A stretch of DNA of 64,000 nt from NCBI RefSeq assembly GCF_902459735.1, contig NZ_CABPRV010000010.1, forward strand, positions 124,001 through 188,000, in the 5' to 3' direction. The translations under genes and the position numbers were made by a program. Of the stretch, positions 4,060 through 11,719 are shown piece by piece. Origin of the DNA: Pandoraea capi. GTDB taxonomy: Bacteria > Pseudomonadota > Gammaproteobacteria > Burkholderiales > Burkholderiaceae. How positions within the stretch are numbered: position 1 is the first letter of the stretch; each line of letters opens with the position of its first letter. The notes beneath the pieces are model-generated. The model worked only from the letters and a program-made list of their open reading frames with translations. It searched no databases and was not told where the DNA came from.

Positions 4060-5931
4060 TCACGCTGCGGCGGGCGTTCCCGAATCCTGACCGCTGCCGT
4101 GACCGAGCCAGTCGAGCGCGCCCTCGCCGGCGGTTTCCGCCCCCGGCCCCGCCCGTCGAATGGCAACGCCCACAGCCAGCACGTCGATGGCAGCGAGATG
4201 CAGAATGCGCGCGATCATGGTGACGTGTGCCCCCATCGTCTCGACGTGATCGTTCGGCAACACCAGCGTCGCCTTGCGCGCGAGCGGTGAATTGCGTGCA
4301 GTCAGCGCGATGACCTTCGCACCGCGCGTGAGCGCGATGTCGACGGCGCGGTTCAGATCCGCCGAGCGGCCCGAGGCCGAAATCGCCACGACCACGTCGC
4401 CCTCACCGAGCAACCCCGCCGACGCTTGCAGCAGATAAGGGTCTCCATAGGCAATGGTCGGTTTGCCGAAGCGGAAGAACTTGTAGTGGGCGTCCTGCGC
4501 GATCACGCCCGAGTTGCCCAGCCCGTAGAACTCGATACGACGCGCGCCGTCGAGCAGCGTCACGGCCGCCTCCACGGTGCGAGCGTCGAGATGCTCGCGC
4601 ATTTGCAGAATCGACGACACGGTGTTGTCGAGCACCTTGGCGCTGAACTCTGCCGCCGTGTCGCCTACGTGCACCTGCCCGTGACGCACCGGCAGCGTGC
4701 CCGTCAGCGCGCTCGCGAGCTTGAGCTTGAAGTCCGAGAGTCCCTGACAGCCCAGCTTGCGACAGAAGCGAATGACCGTGGGCTGACTCACCCGCGCCAG
4801 ACGTGCGATCTCTGCAACCGGTTCGGCGAGCAGTGCACGCGGCTGCTTGAGGGTCAGTTCGGCCACACGTTGTTCCGCCGGACTCAGACGATCGCGCAGA
4901 CGATGCAGACGGTCGATCAGCGCGCCCGCACCAGCCGCGTGTGTGCCGAGTTGCTCGGCAAGGATCGCGGACGTACCGAGAAACGCCGGATGATCGGCCG
5001 TGATGACGTACGTCGGTATCTTCTTCAGATAGGCCTCGAAACGTCCCTTGGCTTCGAAACGCTGGCGGAACGGCGAATCCTCGAACAACTTGCCGAGCTT
5101 CGGGATCACGCCACCGCCGAGGTACACGCCACCGACCGCGCCGAGCGACACCGCGACGTTGCCCGCGAGCGTGCCGAGCATGGCGCAGAAACAGTCGACG
5201 GTCTCGCGCGCCAGTTTGTCGCCAGACTGCGCGAGCTTGACGATGGCCGGCGTCTCCAGCGAGTCGACACGTTGTCCCGCACGCTCGGCCAGCGCCTGAT
5301 AGACGAGTGCCATACCGGGGCCAGCGACGAGACGCTCGAACGAGACATGCGGAAAATGCTTCCATGCGTAGCGCAGAACATCGATCTCGCGCTCGTCCGC
5401 CGGCGCGAACGTGGCGTGACCGCCTTCGCTGCCGAGCGCGATCCAACGGTCGCCGGCAGGAATCAGGCCCGACACGCCGACACCGGTGCCCGGCCCCAGC
5501 AGCCCCAGCACACCATTCGGACGCGGCTCGCCACCGCCGACCGGATGCTTCTGCGCATCCGTCAGGTAGGGCAGCGCCATCGCCAGCGCCGTGAAATCGT
5601 TGACGACCAGCAACGTCTCGAAGCGCAGCGCGCGGCGCGTTGCTTCGATGGAGAAGTGCCAGTCGCGATTGGTCATGCGGATCTCATCGCCTTCGATCGG
5701 ATTGGCGATGGCGATGGCGGCGTGTTGTACCGGTTCGGCGTGATCGGCGTCGTCGAGATAGGCGCGGATGACCTCCGGCACACCGGCGTAGTCGTCGCAG
5801 GCGTAATCGCGGATCTCGACGAGGTCGCCCGGCGCAATCTCCAGCGCGAAGCGGGCGTTGGTGCCGCCGATATCGGCCAGCAGGCGCGGGCCGCTCAGAT
5901 GCGGCGGATTATTCCTCACTCCAGAAGACAT
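4060..5931 (-). CDS. glk: Bifunctional glucokinase / RpiR-HexR family regulator
   Basis: 623-residue fusion. Residues 15-330 are an ATP-dependent glucokinase of the E. coli Glk type: phosphate loop [12 protein letters not shown] (17-28), catalytic Asp in VVNDF (109-113), [12 protein letters not shown] (144-155) and EGGH (169-172). Residues about 335-410 are an RpiR-type helix-turn-helix ([16 protein letters not shown]), and 455-585 a SIS sugar-phosphate-binding domain ([18 protein letters not shown]). The kinase makes glucose 6-phosphate; the SIS domain probably senses a phosphorylated sugar acid, as HexR does with KDPG. The start ATG (5929-5931) overlaps the pgl stop by 23 bases, so translation is coupled. 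This fused form is known in Burkholderiales; its target sites here are inferred (see 8170-8218). Confidence 0.93.
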
Positions 5932-6586
5932 CGATCTTGACTCCTTCGCGGTGGATCAGCCGGGAGATGGCGTTGTCCTGTTCGTCTGCCTGTGCGGCTT
6001 CGAGCACGGCGCGCTTGGCGTGCCCCTGAATTTGCAGGAGTAGGCGATCGCAGGCGGCGAGCGCGGCGAGCGACCACGACACGCGTTGATACGGCGCGCG
6101 CTGCGGCTGCACGAGAACGAACTTGTCGTGGGTGGTGACGGCGTCGTGCCACTGAGGGGCGTCGGCAAACAGCGATGCCGTATGCCCGTCCTCGCCCATG
6201 CCGAGCACGCAGACCTGCGGCACGCCGTGCGTCCACGTGTCGTTGAGCGTGCGCACCTGCAAGGCGGCGGCCGTCGCGGTATCGACGAGCGGCAGCCAGC
6301 GCGCGCCCGTCGCGCCGGGCAGTAACGTCTCGCAGAGCAGACGCGCGTTGCTGTCGGCGTGGTCAGGTGGTAACCAGCGATCGTCGACCAGTGTGATGTC
6401 GACGTTGCGCCACGCGACCGGCAAGCGCGCAAGCTGCGAGAGAAACGCCCGGGGGCTCGTGCCGCCGGACACGGCGAGCAACGCGCGCGGACGAATCGTC
6501 AGCGCTTCGTCGATGCCCGCGACGACGGCGTTCGCGAGGGCGTGCGCCTGGGCGTCGCGCGTCGGAAAGGTGCGCCAATGAATCAT
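5909..6586 (-). CDS. pgl: 6-phosphogluconolactonase
   Basis: Cytosolic hydrolase of 225 residues converting 6-phosphogluconolactone to 6-phosphogluconate, between Zwf and Edd. Family motifs are present: [17 protein letters not shown], the [20 protein letters not shown] segment and [13 protein letters not shown]. The ATG at 6584-6586 begins the conserved MIHWRTF region and matches the family length. It is the middle gene of zwf-pgl-glk: 35 bp after zwf and overlapping glk by 23 bp. Confidence 0.92.
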
Positions 6587-6621
6587 GCGTGTCTGCCTCC
6601 GTTGCCTGGGGGTGGACGTTA

Positions 6622-8121
6622 TCAGTTGTCCTCTTCCACCCAACTCGTGCCGTACTGCGTGAGCAGCGCGCTCGCGGCGGGCGGCCCCCACGTCCCGGCG
6701 GCGTATCGCTTCGGTCCTTTGTGCTGACGCGACCAGTACGCCTGAATCGGCGCCACCCAGCGCCACGCCTGCTCTTGCTCGTCGCGTCGCACGAAGAGCG
6801 CGAGACGGCCGTTGATGACATCGAGCAGCAAGCGCTCGTAGGCATCCATCCGGTGTCCCTTGAAGAACTGGTCGAATGCCAGATCGAGGTGCACCGATTG
6901 CAGGTTCATGCCCTCGCCCGGCTGCTTCGCCAGGCAATAGAGACGAATCGATTCGTTCGGTTGCAGGCGAATCACGAGACGGTTCACACCGGGCTGCGCG
7001 GTCACATCGCCAAGCAGCGGATACGGCGTCGCGCGATAGTTCACGACGATCTCCGCCACACGCTCGCCGAGCCGCTTGCCGGTGCGCAGGAAGAACGGCA
7101 CGCCTGCCCAGCGCCAGTTGTCGATGTCGGCCTTGAGCGCCACGAACGTCTCCGTCTGACTGTCGGACGGCACGCCCGGCTCGTCGACGTAGGCCGGCAC
7201 CGCCGACTTGCCGATCGCGCCGCCGCCGTACTGCCCGCGCACGACATTGCGCGCGACGCTCTCGTCGTCCAGATGACGCAGCGAGCGCAGCACCCGCATC
7301 TTTTCGTCGCGCACGGCGTCGGCATCCATCGACAGCGGCGGCTCCATGGCCACGATGGCGAGCAGTTGCAGCAAGTGATTCTGCACCATGTCGCGTAGCG
7401 CGCCGGTCTGTTCGTAGAACTCGCCGCGCCCTTCGACACCGATCTCCTCGGCAATCGTGATCTGGATGCTGTCGATCAGTTCACGCCGCCACAATGGCTC
7501 GAAGATCGCGTTGCCGAAGCGCAGCGCCAGCAGGTTTTGCACCGCCTCTTTGCCGAGGTAGTGGTCGATCCGGTAGATCTGATCCTCGCGGAAGATCGCG
7601 CCGACGGCGTCGTTGATCGCCTCCGACGAGGCCAGATCGTGCCCCAGCGGCTTTTCGAGCACGATGCGGCTGTTCTCGTTGAGCTTGGCGCTGCGCAAGC
7701 CTTCACAAATGGGAATGAACAGCGACGGGCCGGTCGCGAGATAGAAGATGCGTACGCCGGGACGCTTCGACAGCCGGTCGGCCAGCACCCCGAATTCGGC
7801 TTCGCGGCCGAGATCGAGCGGCATGTAGTCGATGGTGGCGAGAAAGCGCCGCCACGCGTCTTCGTCCCAGACATCCGGTTTGATGTGCTTGCGCACGTGT
7901 TCTTCGCACCAAGCGTGATATTCCGCCGCGTCCATCGGCTTGCGCGCAATGGCGAGGATGCGGCCGGTATCGAGACCGCTAGCGAGTCCAGTGTCGCCTG
8001 CCGGCTCCGGCCCGAGCTGCCCGGTACGAAAGGCGCGGAACAACGACGGCAGCACTTTGCGCAGCGACAAATCGCCGGTAGCGCCGAACAACACAAAGGT
8101 ATAGGGTGAAGGCGTGTTCAT
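6622..8121 (-). CDS. zwf: Glucose-6-phosphate 1-dehydrogenase
   Basis: NADP-linked dehydrogenase of 499 residues oxidising glucose 6-phosphate to 6-phosphogluconolactone. It shows the nucleotide-binding [17 protein letters not shown] near the N terminus and the active-site motif RIDHYLGKE, with catalytic His and Lys. ATG at 8119-8121 leaves the family's usual short N terminus before the Rossmann strand; the ribosome-binding site is weak. First gene of the minus-strand zwf-pgl-glk operon and divergent from edd, sharing a 137-bp gap with two HexR-like sites. Confidence 0.96.
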
Positions 8122-8169
8122 GACAAGACGTCCACGTGTCACTGGGAGAGCGCAACTTTGACACTGCAT

Positions 8170-8184
8170 TGTAGTTTAACTACA
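8170..8184. promoter_or_regulatory. HexR-like operator 1 (perfect palindrome)
   Basis: TGTAGTTTAACTACA is a perfect 7+1+7 palindrome in the zwf/edd intergenic region. It agrees with the known proteobacterial HexR consensus, TGTARTTNNAYTACA-like. It lies 49 bp upstream of the zwf start and 75 bp upstream of the edd start, well placed to control both directions. The likely ligand protein is the Glk-RpiR fusion encoded at the end of the zwf operon. Confidence 0.75.
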
Positions 8185-8203
8185 CTGCAAATCAACAAAA
8201 TCT

Positions 8204-8218
8204 CGTGGTTTGACTACA
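8204..8218. promoter_or_regulatory. HexR-like operator 2 (degenerate)
   Basis: CGTGGTTTGACTACA keeps the right half-site (GACTACA) and part of the left one of the palindrome at 8170-8184, with centres 34 bp (about three helical turns) apart. A weaker second site at that spacing could allow cooperative binding between two dimers and lies nearer the edd start. Confidence 0.45.
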
Positions 8219-8258: not shown

Positions 8259-10106
8259 ATGACCCAGTCTTCGCACAATGTGTCCCTGCATCCGGTGGTA
8301 AAACGCGTGACCGAGCGCCTGATCGAGCGTAGCCGGGCGTCGCGTCAGGCGTATCTCGACGGCGTGGCGCGCGCCACCGAGGGTCAGCCCGGCCGAGAAA
8401 AGATCGGTTGCGCCAATCTGGCCCACGCGCTGGCCGCCGCGCCCGCCGACGACCGCCTCAAGATCCGCTCCGAACGCACGCCCAACATCGGCATCGTCAC
8501 CGCGTACAACGACATGCTCTCGGCGCACGCGCCCTTCGTCGAATTCCCCGATGTCATCAAATCCGCCGCACGCGCGCATGGCGCAAGTGCGCAGGTGGCC
8601 GGCGGCGTACCGGCCATGTGCGACGGCGTGACGCAAGGCTATGCGGGCATGGAGCTGTCGCTGTTCTCACGCGACGTGATCGCCATGGCATCGGTCGTCG
8701 CACTCTCGCACCAGATGTTCGATGCCGCCATGTTCCTCGGCGTGTGTGACAAGATCGTGCCCGGTCTGGTGATCGCCGCGCAGGCGTTCGGCCACCTGCC
8801 CGCCGTGTTCAGCCCCGCCGGGCCGATGCCGTCGGGATTGCCCAACGACGAGAAGTCGCGCATCCGGCAGGAATACGCGGCAGGACGCGTAACGCGCGCC
8901 GCGCTGCTCGACTCGGAGCTCGCCGCGTATCACACTGAAGGCACCTGCACGTTCTACGGCACGGCCAACAGTAATCAGATGCTCATGGAGTTCATGGGCC
9001 TGCATCTGCCCGGCTCGTCGTTCGTCAATCCGCACACGCCGCTACGGCATGCGCTGACGCAAGCCGCGACTGCCCGCGCGATCGCTCTGGCGAAGTCGGG
9101 CATCAACACATCGCAGATTCTGGATGAGCGCGCGTTCATCAACGGCGTGGTCGGGTTGCTCGCCACCGGCGGGTCGACGAACCACACGCTGCACCTCGTG
9201 GCGATGGCGCATGCGGGCGGCATTCTGCTCGACTGGCAGGACTTCGCCGAACTGTCGGACGTCACGCCGTTGCTCGCCCACGTCTACCCGAGCGGCAAGG
9301 CGGATGTGAACCAGTTCCACGCAGCGGGCGGCCTGAGCTTCCTGATTCGCGAGCTGCTCGATGCCGGTTTCCTGCACAACGATGTGACGACCGTCATGGG
9401 GCACGGGTTGCGCGCCTACACGCAGGAAGCTTTCCTGCGCGACGACGTGCTGTCCTGGCAGGAAGCACCGACGGAAAGCCTCGACGAAAACATCGTGCGC
9501 CCCGCGTCGCGACCGTTCGCACCGGAAGGCGGGCTGCGCATGCTCGCGGGCAATCTCGGCCGCGCGGTCATCAAGTCCTCCGCGGTCAAACCCGAGCATC
9601 AGACGGTGCGCGCCCCGGCACGCGTGTTCTCCGATCAGGAGTCGGCGCAGGCTGCGTTCAAGGCAGGCGAACTGACGCGCGACGTGATCGTCGTGGTTCG
9701 CTTTCAGGGGCCGCGCGCGAACGGCATGCCCGAGTTGCACAAGCTCATGCCGATGCTCGGCCTGTTGCAGGACGAAGGGCATCATGTGGCACTCGTCACG
9801 GACGGGCGGATGTCGGGGGCGTCCGGCAAAGTACCTGCTGCGATTCACCTCTCGCCCGAGGCCGAACAGGGCGGCATGCTCGCCCGCGTGCAGGATGGCG
9901 ACATCATCTCCATCGACTGCGCGACGAACACGCTTCGCTGCGAAGTCGACGACGCCACGCTCGCCGCCCGCACGCCGCAGGCCGTGCCGCAGCGGCCGTT
10001 CGATCCGTGGCGTAACCTGTTCGGTCTGTTCCGCAACAACGTCGGCGCGGCGCCGCACGGCGCGTGCGTGCTGTTCAACGACGCCGACTATCCGAAGCAG
10101 GCGTGA
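8259..10106 (+). CDS. edd: Phosphogluconate dehydratase (Entner-Doudoroff)
   Basis: 615-residue Fe-S dehydratase of the IlvD/Edd family making 2-keto-3-deoxy-6-phosphogluconate from 6-phosphogluconate. Cluster cysteines are visible in AMCDGVTQG, GVCDKIVPG and GTCTFYGTANSNQM, together with the family segment VVRFQGPRANGMPELHKLMP near residue 485. The ATG at 8259 follows CCGGAATCACC. Divergent from zwf, with HexR-like palindromes between. KDPG aldolase (eda) is not in the window; a rho-independent terminator follows at 10178. Confidence 0.96.
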   Translation: MTQSSHNVSLHPVVKRVTERLIERSRASRQAYLDGVARATEGQPGREKIGCANLAHALAAAPADDRLKIRSERTPNIGIVTAYNDMLSAHAPFVEFPDVIKSAARAHGASAQVAGGVPAMCDGVTQGYAGMELSLFSRDVIAMASVVALSHQMFDAAMFLGVCDKIVPGLVIAAQAFGHLPAVFSPAGPMPSGLPNDEKSRIRQEYAAGRVTRAALLDSELAAYHTEGTCTFYGTANSNQMLMEFMGLHLPGSSFVNPHTPLRHALTQAATARAIALAKSGINTSQILDERAFINGVVGLLATGGSTNHTLHLVAMAHAGGILLDWQDFAELSDVTPLLAHVYPSGKADVNQFHAAGGLSFLIRELLDAGFLHNDVTTVMGHGLRAYTQEAFLRDDVLSWQEAPTESLDENIVRPASRPFAPEGGLRMLAGNLGRAVIKSSAVKPEHQTVRAPARVFSDQESAQAAFKAGELTRDVIVVVRFQGPRANGMPELHKLMPMLGLLQDEGHHVALVTDGRMSGASGKVPAAIHLSPEAEQGGMLARVQDGDIISIDCATNTLRCEVDDATLAARTPQAVPQRPFDPWRNLFGLFRNNVGAAPHGACVLFNDADYPKQA

Positions 10107-10837: not shown

Positions 10838-11719
10838 ATGAACACAGCCATCTTCCAAGGCGTGTGGGTTCCCCTCGTCACGCCAATGACCGGCGCCAAT
10901 GGCGCCCAGATCGATCACAACGCCTTCGCGCGTCTGGTCGACTATTACCTCGCTGCCGGCGTGAACGGTCTGGTCGTGGCCGGCACCACCGGGGAAGGCA
11001 CCCTGCTCAATGACGACGAACGTCGCTGGCTCGCCGAGACGGCCTGCCACCTCGCTCACGGCCATGCGCCGGTGCTCGCGGGGGTGGGTGCCTCCGATAC
11101 GTCGAACGCCGCGCGTCAGATCCGCAATCTCGACGATCTGCCGCTCGCCGGTTATCTGGTGCCGCCGCCGTATTACCTGCGCCCGTCGCAGGAAGGCATT
11201 CTCTGGCATTACCGCACGCTCGCCGCCGGCACGCGCAAACCGCTGGTGCTCTACAACGTGCCGCTACGCACGGGCGTGACGCTCGGCGTGGAGACGATTC
11301 GCGAACTGGCCTCGCATGAAGCGTTCGCCGCGATCAAGGAATGCGACGCACATCCGCTCACGCACCTGCCGTCGCAAGTGACCATGCGCGTGCTGTGCGG
11401 CGACGACATGCAGATCCTGCCCGCGCTGCAAGCGGGTGCGGTCGGATGCATCTCCGCTGCGGCGCATATCCGTCCCGATCTTTATCTGAAGCTGATCCGC
11501 TATGTGCGCGAGGGGGACATGGATCACGCGACCAAGCTGTTCAACGGCATGAAGCCATTGATCCGGCGTCTGTTCTCCGAGCCGAATCCGGTCGCGATCA
11601 AAGCGGCGCTCACCTCGCTCGGCCTGTGTACGCAGACGGTGCGCCGTCCGCTCATGCCCTGCTCCCCAGCGCTGCGCAAGGATATCGACGCGCAACTCGA
11701 AGTGACGATGGCCTTCTGA
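10838..11719 (+). CDS. DapA-family aldolase (4-hydroxy-tetrahydrodipicolinate synthase-like)
   Basis: 293-residue (beta/alpha)8 class I aldolase. The pyruvate-binding GTTGEG, the YNVP-RTG segment with its Tyr and Arg, and the Schiff-base Lys in AIKECDAH are all in place, as in true DapA. It would condense pyruvate with an aldehyde; aspartate semialdehyde in lysine biosynthesis is the default. Its position near edd and an HTH protein, away from lysine genes, leaves open a role as a paralogue (N-acetylneuraminate lyase or keto-deoxy-sugar aldolase type). The second substrate cannot be read from sequence. Confidence 0.8.
   Translation: MNTAIFQGVWVPLVTPMTGANGAQIDHNAFARLVDYYLAAGVNGLVVAGTTGEGTLLNDDERRWLAETACHLAHGHAPVLAGVGASDTSNAARQIRNLDDLPLAGYLVPPPYYLRPSQEGILWHYRTLAAGTRKPLVLYNVPLRTGVTLGVETIRELASHEAFAAIKECDAHPLTHLPSQVTMRVLCGDDMQILPALQAGAVGCISAAAHIRPDLYLKLIRYVREGDMDHATKLFNGMKPLIRRLFSEPNPVAIKAALTSLGLCTQTVRRPLMPCSPALRKDIDAQLEVTMAF

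Follow-up and report, generated by a model that had tools for sequence, protein, structure and literature searches.

Which protein reads the palindrome between zwf and edd1, and what signal releases it? The question arises from a 64,000-nucleotide stretch of the Pandoraea capi genome (contig NZ_CABPRV010000010.1, positions 124,001 to 188,000; hereafter the window), in which zwf, pgl and a gene encoding a glucokinase fused to an RpiR-family regulator lie in this order on the minus strand, with edd1 divergent on the plus strand. An earlier note on this DNA had proposed that the fusion binds at 8170-8184 and controls its own operon in response to 2-keto-3-deoxy-6-phosphogluconate (KDPG). Binding and autoregulation are strongly supported by the co-occurrence of protein and site across 299 genomes and by the layout of one of these (G036), whereas the KDPG assumption fared less well. 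With a probability of roughly 0.85, we conclude that the fusion reads the zwf/edd operator and controls both edd1 and its own operon, that a second regulator, HexR2, takes a second locus, and that the effector may not be KDPG. The two elements at issue are as follows.

4060..5931, minus strand: fusion of a glucokinase and an RpiR-type regulator, 623 amino acids (open reading frame, ORF, and PRK14101 score)
8170..8184, no strand assigned: TGTAGTTTAACTACA, very probably the operator of the fusion; it lies in the zwf/edd gap and shares bases with the second hexamer of each promoter-like site

The site and the fusion travel together. In the window genome, TGTAGTTTAACTACA is present once at zero mismatches. 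Among 60 genomes of the family, the exact 15-mer occurs once each in 23, every one of which belongs to the 24 genomes whose fusion is full-length; the 24th (G046) has a one-mismatch copy. The exact site is absent from all 36 fusion-less genomes of this sample, and a reversed-pattern control gave no match in any of the 60. Across 299 family genomes, a hand tally of two tables yields 165 with both fusion and exact site, 3 with the fusion only, 2 with the site only and 129 with neither. The three fusion-only genomes (G046, G168 and G090) each carry a one-mismatch copy, and in one of the site-only genomes (G228) the fusion is interrupted by contig ends. A chance palindrome is ruled out by these counts with their reversed-pattern control and by a scan allowing up to three mismatches, which returned 4 matches where shuffles gave a mean of 0.09; two of the 4 are the site read on its two strands.

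Genomes in which the locus has been rearranged are particularly informative. In G036, where the fusion lies away from zwf, the exact site separates it from a cluster of sugar-transporter-like genes, and the best match upstream of zwf has 4 mismatches. It is this layout, with fusion and site together away from zwf, that along with the 299-genome co-occurrence strongly supports their pairing. Three genomes of genus g10 have no intact fusion (G185, G271 and G227; two broken or split, one without a glucokinase match), and the exact site is absent from all three. In four small genomes of genus g8 (L256, L257, L086 and L087; 1.1-1.2 Mb) the fusion is reduced to its glucokinase and zwf-pgl-glk is kept; no separate regulator match was found in these at E 1e-20, and their sites have 0, 1, 2 and 3 mismatches. 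Such cases bear on the possibility that the palindrome belongs to an unrelated regulator of glucose genes and is linked to the fusion by common ancestry only. Although the confinement of site-bearing genomes to 10 of the 25 genera of one family fits that explanation, we consider it very improbable, as the site adjoins the fusion in G036 where zwf is apart, is missing in the g10 genomes, drifts in the glucokinase-only genomes, and is of the kind bound by the RpiR-family regulator RccR.

The window genome does encode a stand-alone HexR-like protein, HexR2, which is 46% identical to the regulator half of the fusion. The earlier note had staked its proposal on there being no separate HexR elsewhere; there is one, but it has an operator core of its own that tracks HexR2. 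The hexR2 gene is divergent from edd2-eda-gntT-gntK (L031:6443-12439, in G000:C7), where eda is the only match to PF01081 (the KDPG-aldolase family) in the genome and edd2 is 63% identical to edd1. The hexR2/edd2 gap holds TGTAGAATTTCTACT and TGTACAAAAACTACA, which share the TGTAG...CTAC arms of the zwf/edd palindrome and differ from it in the core. The pattern TGTAGWWWWTCTACW, itself taken from the hexR2 gaps of the same genomes that were later counted, matches the distribution of HexR2 in the 60-genome sample without exception, being present in all 22 genomes that have the protein and absent from the remaining 38, and on the strength of this tracking two regulators with two predicted operator cores coexist in the genome. 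A further HexR2-type site, TGTAGTTTTTCTACT, was seen at L261:2613-2627 (G000:C13:177112), in the gap between SDR-like and LysR-like ORFs.

It could then be HexR2 that reads the zwf/edd palindrome, the regulator half of the fusion having lost its role. HexR2 comes closer than the fusion to the HexR model PRK11302 (291.1 bits, just under the cut-off of 296, versus 216.8 for the fusion), keeps KDPG contacts, and has sites with the same arms. However, the six fusion genomes of the 60-genome sample without HexR2 keep the site, exact in G048, G036, G037, G053 and G016 and with one mismatch in G046, although G016 carries a more distant relative (36%) and the absence of HexR2 from G053 weighs less because that genome is 83% complete. 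Conversely, four genomes with HexR2 and no fusion (G002, G026, G038 and G045) lack the exact site, an absence that is weaker for G038 (70% complete). The HexR2 sites have another core and are located at edd2, and 26 fusions show conserved helix-turn-helix (HTH) residues, which argues against a lost role. On genome co-occurrence and on the different core of the HexR2 sites, we regard the alternative that HexR2 reads the palindrome as improbable and have rejected it.

Several observations weigh against assigning the palindrome to the fusion and the other core to HexR2. The 299 genomes are related, and thus are not 299 independent events; the site is limited to the 10 genera mentioned above; the reversed control matched one genome among the 299; and to these are added the shared origin of the TGTAGWWWWTCTACW pattern and its count, and the two incomplete genomes. 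In the second site-only genome, G060, the exact site is kept, and what remains of the fusion is the glucokinase half with the first part of the HTH. In G017 the fusion and zwf are each preceded by a copy with one mismatch, and it is a transporter-like gene that has the exact site upstream. In the stretches read, such a motif is mostly lacking near fusions of the order's other families, and four of the listed TGTAGWWWWTCTACW places sit away from hexR2, in HexR2 genomes. As a separate observation on G017, two operator copies flank a porin-like ORF (L083:5519-6993), which neighbours both the transporter-like gene and the fusion.

The genome-wide search for the palindrome that the earlier note called for found the exact site once, in the zwf/edd gap, and, with the many 2- and 3-mismatch copies, 543 places in all. 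The sole one-mismatch copy among the matches listed, G000:C9:241972, is inside an ORF that we take to be elongation-factor-G-like. Surrounding ORFs were read for the 2- and 3-mismatch copies at C7 and C13 only, and further targets are possible.

The features around the operator are listed here.

8204..8218, no strand assigned: degenerate auxiliary copy at a distance of 34 bp from the main operator; its GTAGT half is conserved
8168..8195, minus strand: zwf-direction promoter-like site TTGATT-16-TACAAT (consensus match)
8158..8186, plus strand: edd-direction promoter-like site TTGACA-17-TACACT (consensus match)
6622..8121, minus strand: zwf, glucose-6-phosphate dehydrogenase (ORF and profile score; start codon chosen here)
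5909..6583, minus strand: pgl, 6-phosphogluconolactonase (ORF and Pfam; start codon chosen in this analysis)
8259..10106, plus strand: edd1, phosphogluconate dehydratase, the divergent gene (ORF and profile score)

As the earlier note had seen, TGTAGTTTAACTACA is a perfect odd-length palindrome, with two exact 7-bp arms around one central base, and a degenerate copy follows three helical turns away. The 36 Pandoraea loci that have the exact main site reduce to 24 distinct contexts, and the GTAGT half of that copy, 34 bp away on the edd side, is present in all 24. In 82 other contexts, which include one same-genus locus (L084), an ACTAC half-site is instead found on the zwf side, at 33 bp in 71 and at 34 bp in 4, and so the auxiliary half-site switches sides of the operator between groups. 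The two divergent promoter-like sites, which are consensus matches and not mapped transcription starts, are also conserved among the named loci (the best 80 of 230 found, hence not independent; 79 were scanned, L222 being dropped for its short upstream sequence). All 79 contain the exact 15-mer; in the divergent direction TTGACA is present in 79, followed by TACAAT in 64 or TACACT in 15, while in the zwf direction TACAAT is found in 78 and TTGATT in 60. At nine Paraburkholderia, Burkholderia and Trinickia loci the divergent gene is not edd; it is a solute-binding-protein-like ORF (PF01547 in the one tested).

The 3' end of pgl overlaps the start of the fusion by 23 nt, on account of which translation of the two may be coupled. 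The mechanical ORF list starts zwf at 8169; this start touches the palindrome and would precede the transcription start expected from the promoter-like site, making 8121 the likelier choice. A DHDPS-family gene that exceeds the dapA cut-off lies 0.7 kb past edd1 (10838-11719, plus strand).

The earlier note also held that the palindrome agrees with the HexR consensus, which proved not to be the case. According to PMC5489143, that consensus is TTGT-N7-8-ACAA, and Pseudomonas HexR represses zwf and edd; the window site reads TTGT-N9-ACAC and so departs from the HexR spacing. The same paper describes a 15-bp palindrome for RccR, TGTAGT-N3-ACTACA, exemplified by the aceE sites TGTAGTTTTACTACT and TGTAGTAAAACTACA, for which KDPG lowers RccR affinity. 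The window site fits this pattern and is one mismatch from TGTAGTAAAACTACA. A study of HexR regulons (PMC5343134) tabulates 11 taxa and speaks of 13 in the running text; Burkholderiales may be among them.

The protein itself is a predicted glucokinase joined to a predicted RpiR-family repressor. Its parts are:

4954..5883, minus strand: glucokinase domain, residues 17-326 (Pfam)
4705..4914, minus strand: HTH_6, RpiR-type DNA-binding domain, residues 340-409 (Pfam)
4174..4551, minus strand: SIS domain, residues 461-586 (Pfam)
4063..4149, minus strand: C-terminal tail, which begins at residue 595, carries the motif LDWLGHG and has neither Lys nor Arg, in the region that holds K270 and R277 in RccR

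The ORF and these domains bear out the single polypeptide of 623 residues that had been described, and the combination of HTH_6 and SIS places its second half in the RpiR family. That such fusions are known also holds: at 933.8 bits the whole protein exceeds the curated cut-off of 920 for the NCBI family PRK14101 / NF010701 (bifunctional transcriptional regulator/glucokinase), and it is 97% identical to the fusions of P. commovens and others. The glucokinase half scores 305.7 bits against TIGR00749 (cut-off 225.45) and matches the E. coli glucokinase structures 1q18/1sz2 at 244.6 bits. Residues D112, E169, H172 and E199, whose catalytic roles are known from the E. coli enzyme, are identical in 114 of 114 fusion sequences, in which some species, as in the set of 104 used below, occur twice (e.g. 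L063 and L177). The regulator half is 37% identical to E. coli HexR, and its top matches among solved structures are 8ju9 and 8k3b. A recurring tail is shared by the fused regulators, LDWL[SG]HG or close to it in the family sequences printed and ISHL- or SHG-like in several other families.

From sequence, we infer a model of binding, repression, occlusion, oligomeric state and effector as follows. A glucokinase whose catalytic residues are conserved would be tethered to an RpiR-family repressor whose regulator half binds TGTAGTTTAACTACA, probably as a dimer or tetramer. The bound operator would cover the second hexamers of the two divergent promoter-like sites and shut both by occlusion, with the auxiliary half-site 33-34 bp away helping a second protein pair. 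In this manner edd1 would be controlled on one side and zwf-pgl-fusion, hence the fusion itself, on the other, while the unfused KDPG-type regulator, with its different operator core, would control edd2-eda-gntT-gntK. The releasing signal may be a phosphosugar or the state of the kinase half, and KDPG is not assured. That catalysis and sensing might influence each other within one chain, as the earlier note suggested, we likewise infer.

To what does the fusion respond? RccR has nine KDPG contacts (structure 8K3B is RccR with KDPG), and Ala at R152, K270 or R277 abolished KDPG binding (PMC10810197). The window protein keeps five of the nine. The phosphate-contact serines are matched by S474, S518, S520 and S523 and R152 is kept, whereas H148 and H164 are replaced by Y483 and Y499, and K270 and R277, two of the four lost contacts and essential in RccR, have no counterpart. 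Because four of the nine contacts are missing, sensing of KDPG by the window fusion, which the earlier note had taken for granted, is doubtful, and the signal may differ.

Much of this pattern extends to 104 family fusions (L251 was left out of the residue comparison). S139, S183 and R152 are kept in all 104 and S185 in 103; Tyr takes the place of H148 in every one of the 104 and that of H164 in 103, and the S188 place has Ala in 85, Ser in 18 (among them the window protein) and Leu in 1. With the tail places located by counting from residue 259, no alignment of them being printed, Lys is exactly at the K270 place in 3 of 104, or in 54 if a shift of one residue is allowed (the window protein has none), and Arg is within one residue of the R277 place in 0 of 104. 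By comparison, the 22 HexR2 sequences keep H148 in 22, H164 in 21 and both tail residues in 22, and E. coli HexR is without H148 and H164 and retains the tail Lys and Arg. In a wider set, 12 of 12 unfused HexR2-type sequences keep both histidines and, within one position, both tail residues, whereas both tail residues are found in 0 of 16 fused sequences (one has Lys, one Arg); three f173 fusions retain both histidines. The unfused regulator of genus g24 (3 sequences; L093, L094 and L095) has also lost the KDPG set, which rules out that this loss is unique to fusions. In this genus the regulator lies tail to tail with glk, and a palindrome, TGTAGTAATACTACA, is present at zwf.

These data can be read in two ways. 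The fusion may be a textbook HexR, a KDPG-induced repressor in which the fused kinase merely fixes the enzyme:repressor ratio. The genes of the operon lead to KDPG, its relatives RccR and HexR respond to KDPG, and the fusion keeps the phosphate serines and R152. E. coli HexR also does without the two histidines, the f173 fusions have kept them, and a Lys is near the K270 place in about half of the family sequences, though not in the window protein. Set against this are the need for each of R152, K270 and R277 in RccR, the absence of any Arg near the R277 place, a window tail with neither Lys nor Arg, the near-universal tyrosines, and the tail Lys and Arg kept by E. coli HexR and every HexR2 sequence; we hold this reading at a little under even odds. 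Alternatively, the repressor may have given up KDPG on fusion. Its input would then be glucose 6-phosphate, which the kinase itself makes, sensed through the changed SIS pocket, or else whether the kinase half has its substrates bound; the unfused paralogue would have retained KDPG together with the lower part of the pathway. This reading is tentative, well short of an even chance, and we marked it down slightly because 54 of 104 fusions have a Lys close to the position of K270.

Phylogenetic analysis is consistent with a distinct lineage of fused regulators. In a first tree, which contained 6 of the 80 named fusions and 24 family fusions and from which L251 was omitted, fusions form their own group (support 100/98) with RccR and E. 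coli HexR outside. In a second, built from 14 reference and 17 order-level sequences (one from g24 included, the broken L286 excluded), 16 fused sequences fall on one side of a branch (87/82). The root position is ambiguous and long branches were flagged in these trees, and the placement of groups relative to RccR is provisional. In families f179, f187, f193 and f197, zwf-pgl-glk and an unfused HexR2-type gene occur in a row facing edd-eda, and this neighbourhood is a possible starting layout for the fusion. An order-level search gave a match at E 1e-150 in 17 of 250 genomes, some unfused sequences and two family genomes counted among them, and a class-level search with the regulator half gave matches at E 1e-45 in 9 of 185 genomes, none of them fused except that in the genome of the window.

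The fusion protein has thus been recognized before: beyond the NCBI model, a recent paper (PMC12568896) names such a bifunctional protein in Paraburkholderia xenovorans LB400, and both names are of the glucokinase-HexR type, suggesting KDPG control. For PRK14101, a literature search outside of which lay RegPrecise and subscription papers returned only this naming, with no described operator, effector or paralogue split, and a text search gave no paper with the 15-mer or with the terms glk-hexR or Glk-RpiR. To this the present data add a likely operator for the fusion, a paralogue that has an operator of its own, and alterations in the ligand site of the fusion; taken together, they predict split control of glucose and gluconate in these bacteria, and they make it testable whether an enzyme signals directly to a promoter inside a single chain. 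In the reading in which KDPG was given up, an active enzyme would be the sensor of its own transcription switch.

Among known systems, Pseudomonas RccR resembles the fusion in its RpiR family membership, its 15-bp TGTAGT-N3-ACTACA palindrome and the place of 8k3b among the top structure matches; it differs in being unfused, in controlling aceE, aceA and others, and in having nine KDPG contacts where the window protein has five. HexR (YebK in E. coli; also in Pseudomonas) is likewise of the RpiR family, and the Pseudomonas protein represses zwf and edd, but the window protein is fused, is below the HexR model cut-off, has another operator and lacks the tail Lys and Arg. In Mlc, NagC and other ROK repressors a DNA-binding domain is joined to a sugar-kinase fold; the fusion, in contrast, has conserved kinase residues and a SIS domain. 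The mammalian glucokinase regulatory protein is a separate protein that goes with a different glucokinase type and is not known to bind DNA. It serves as an analogy only, in that it has SIS domains, is modulated by fructose phosphates and acts on a glucokinase (PMC4109836). PRK14101 proteins share the domain order of the window fusion.

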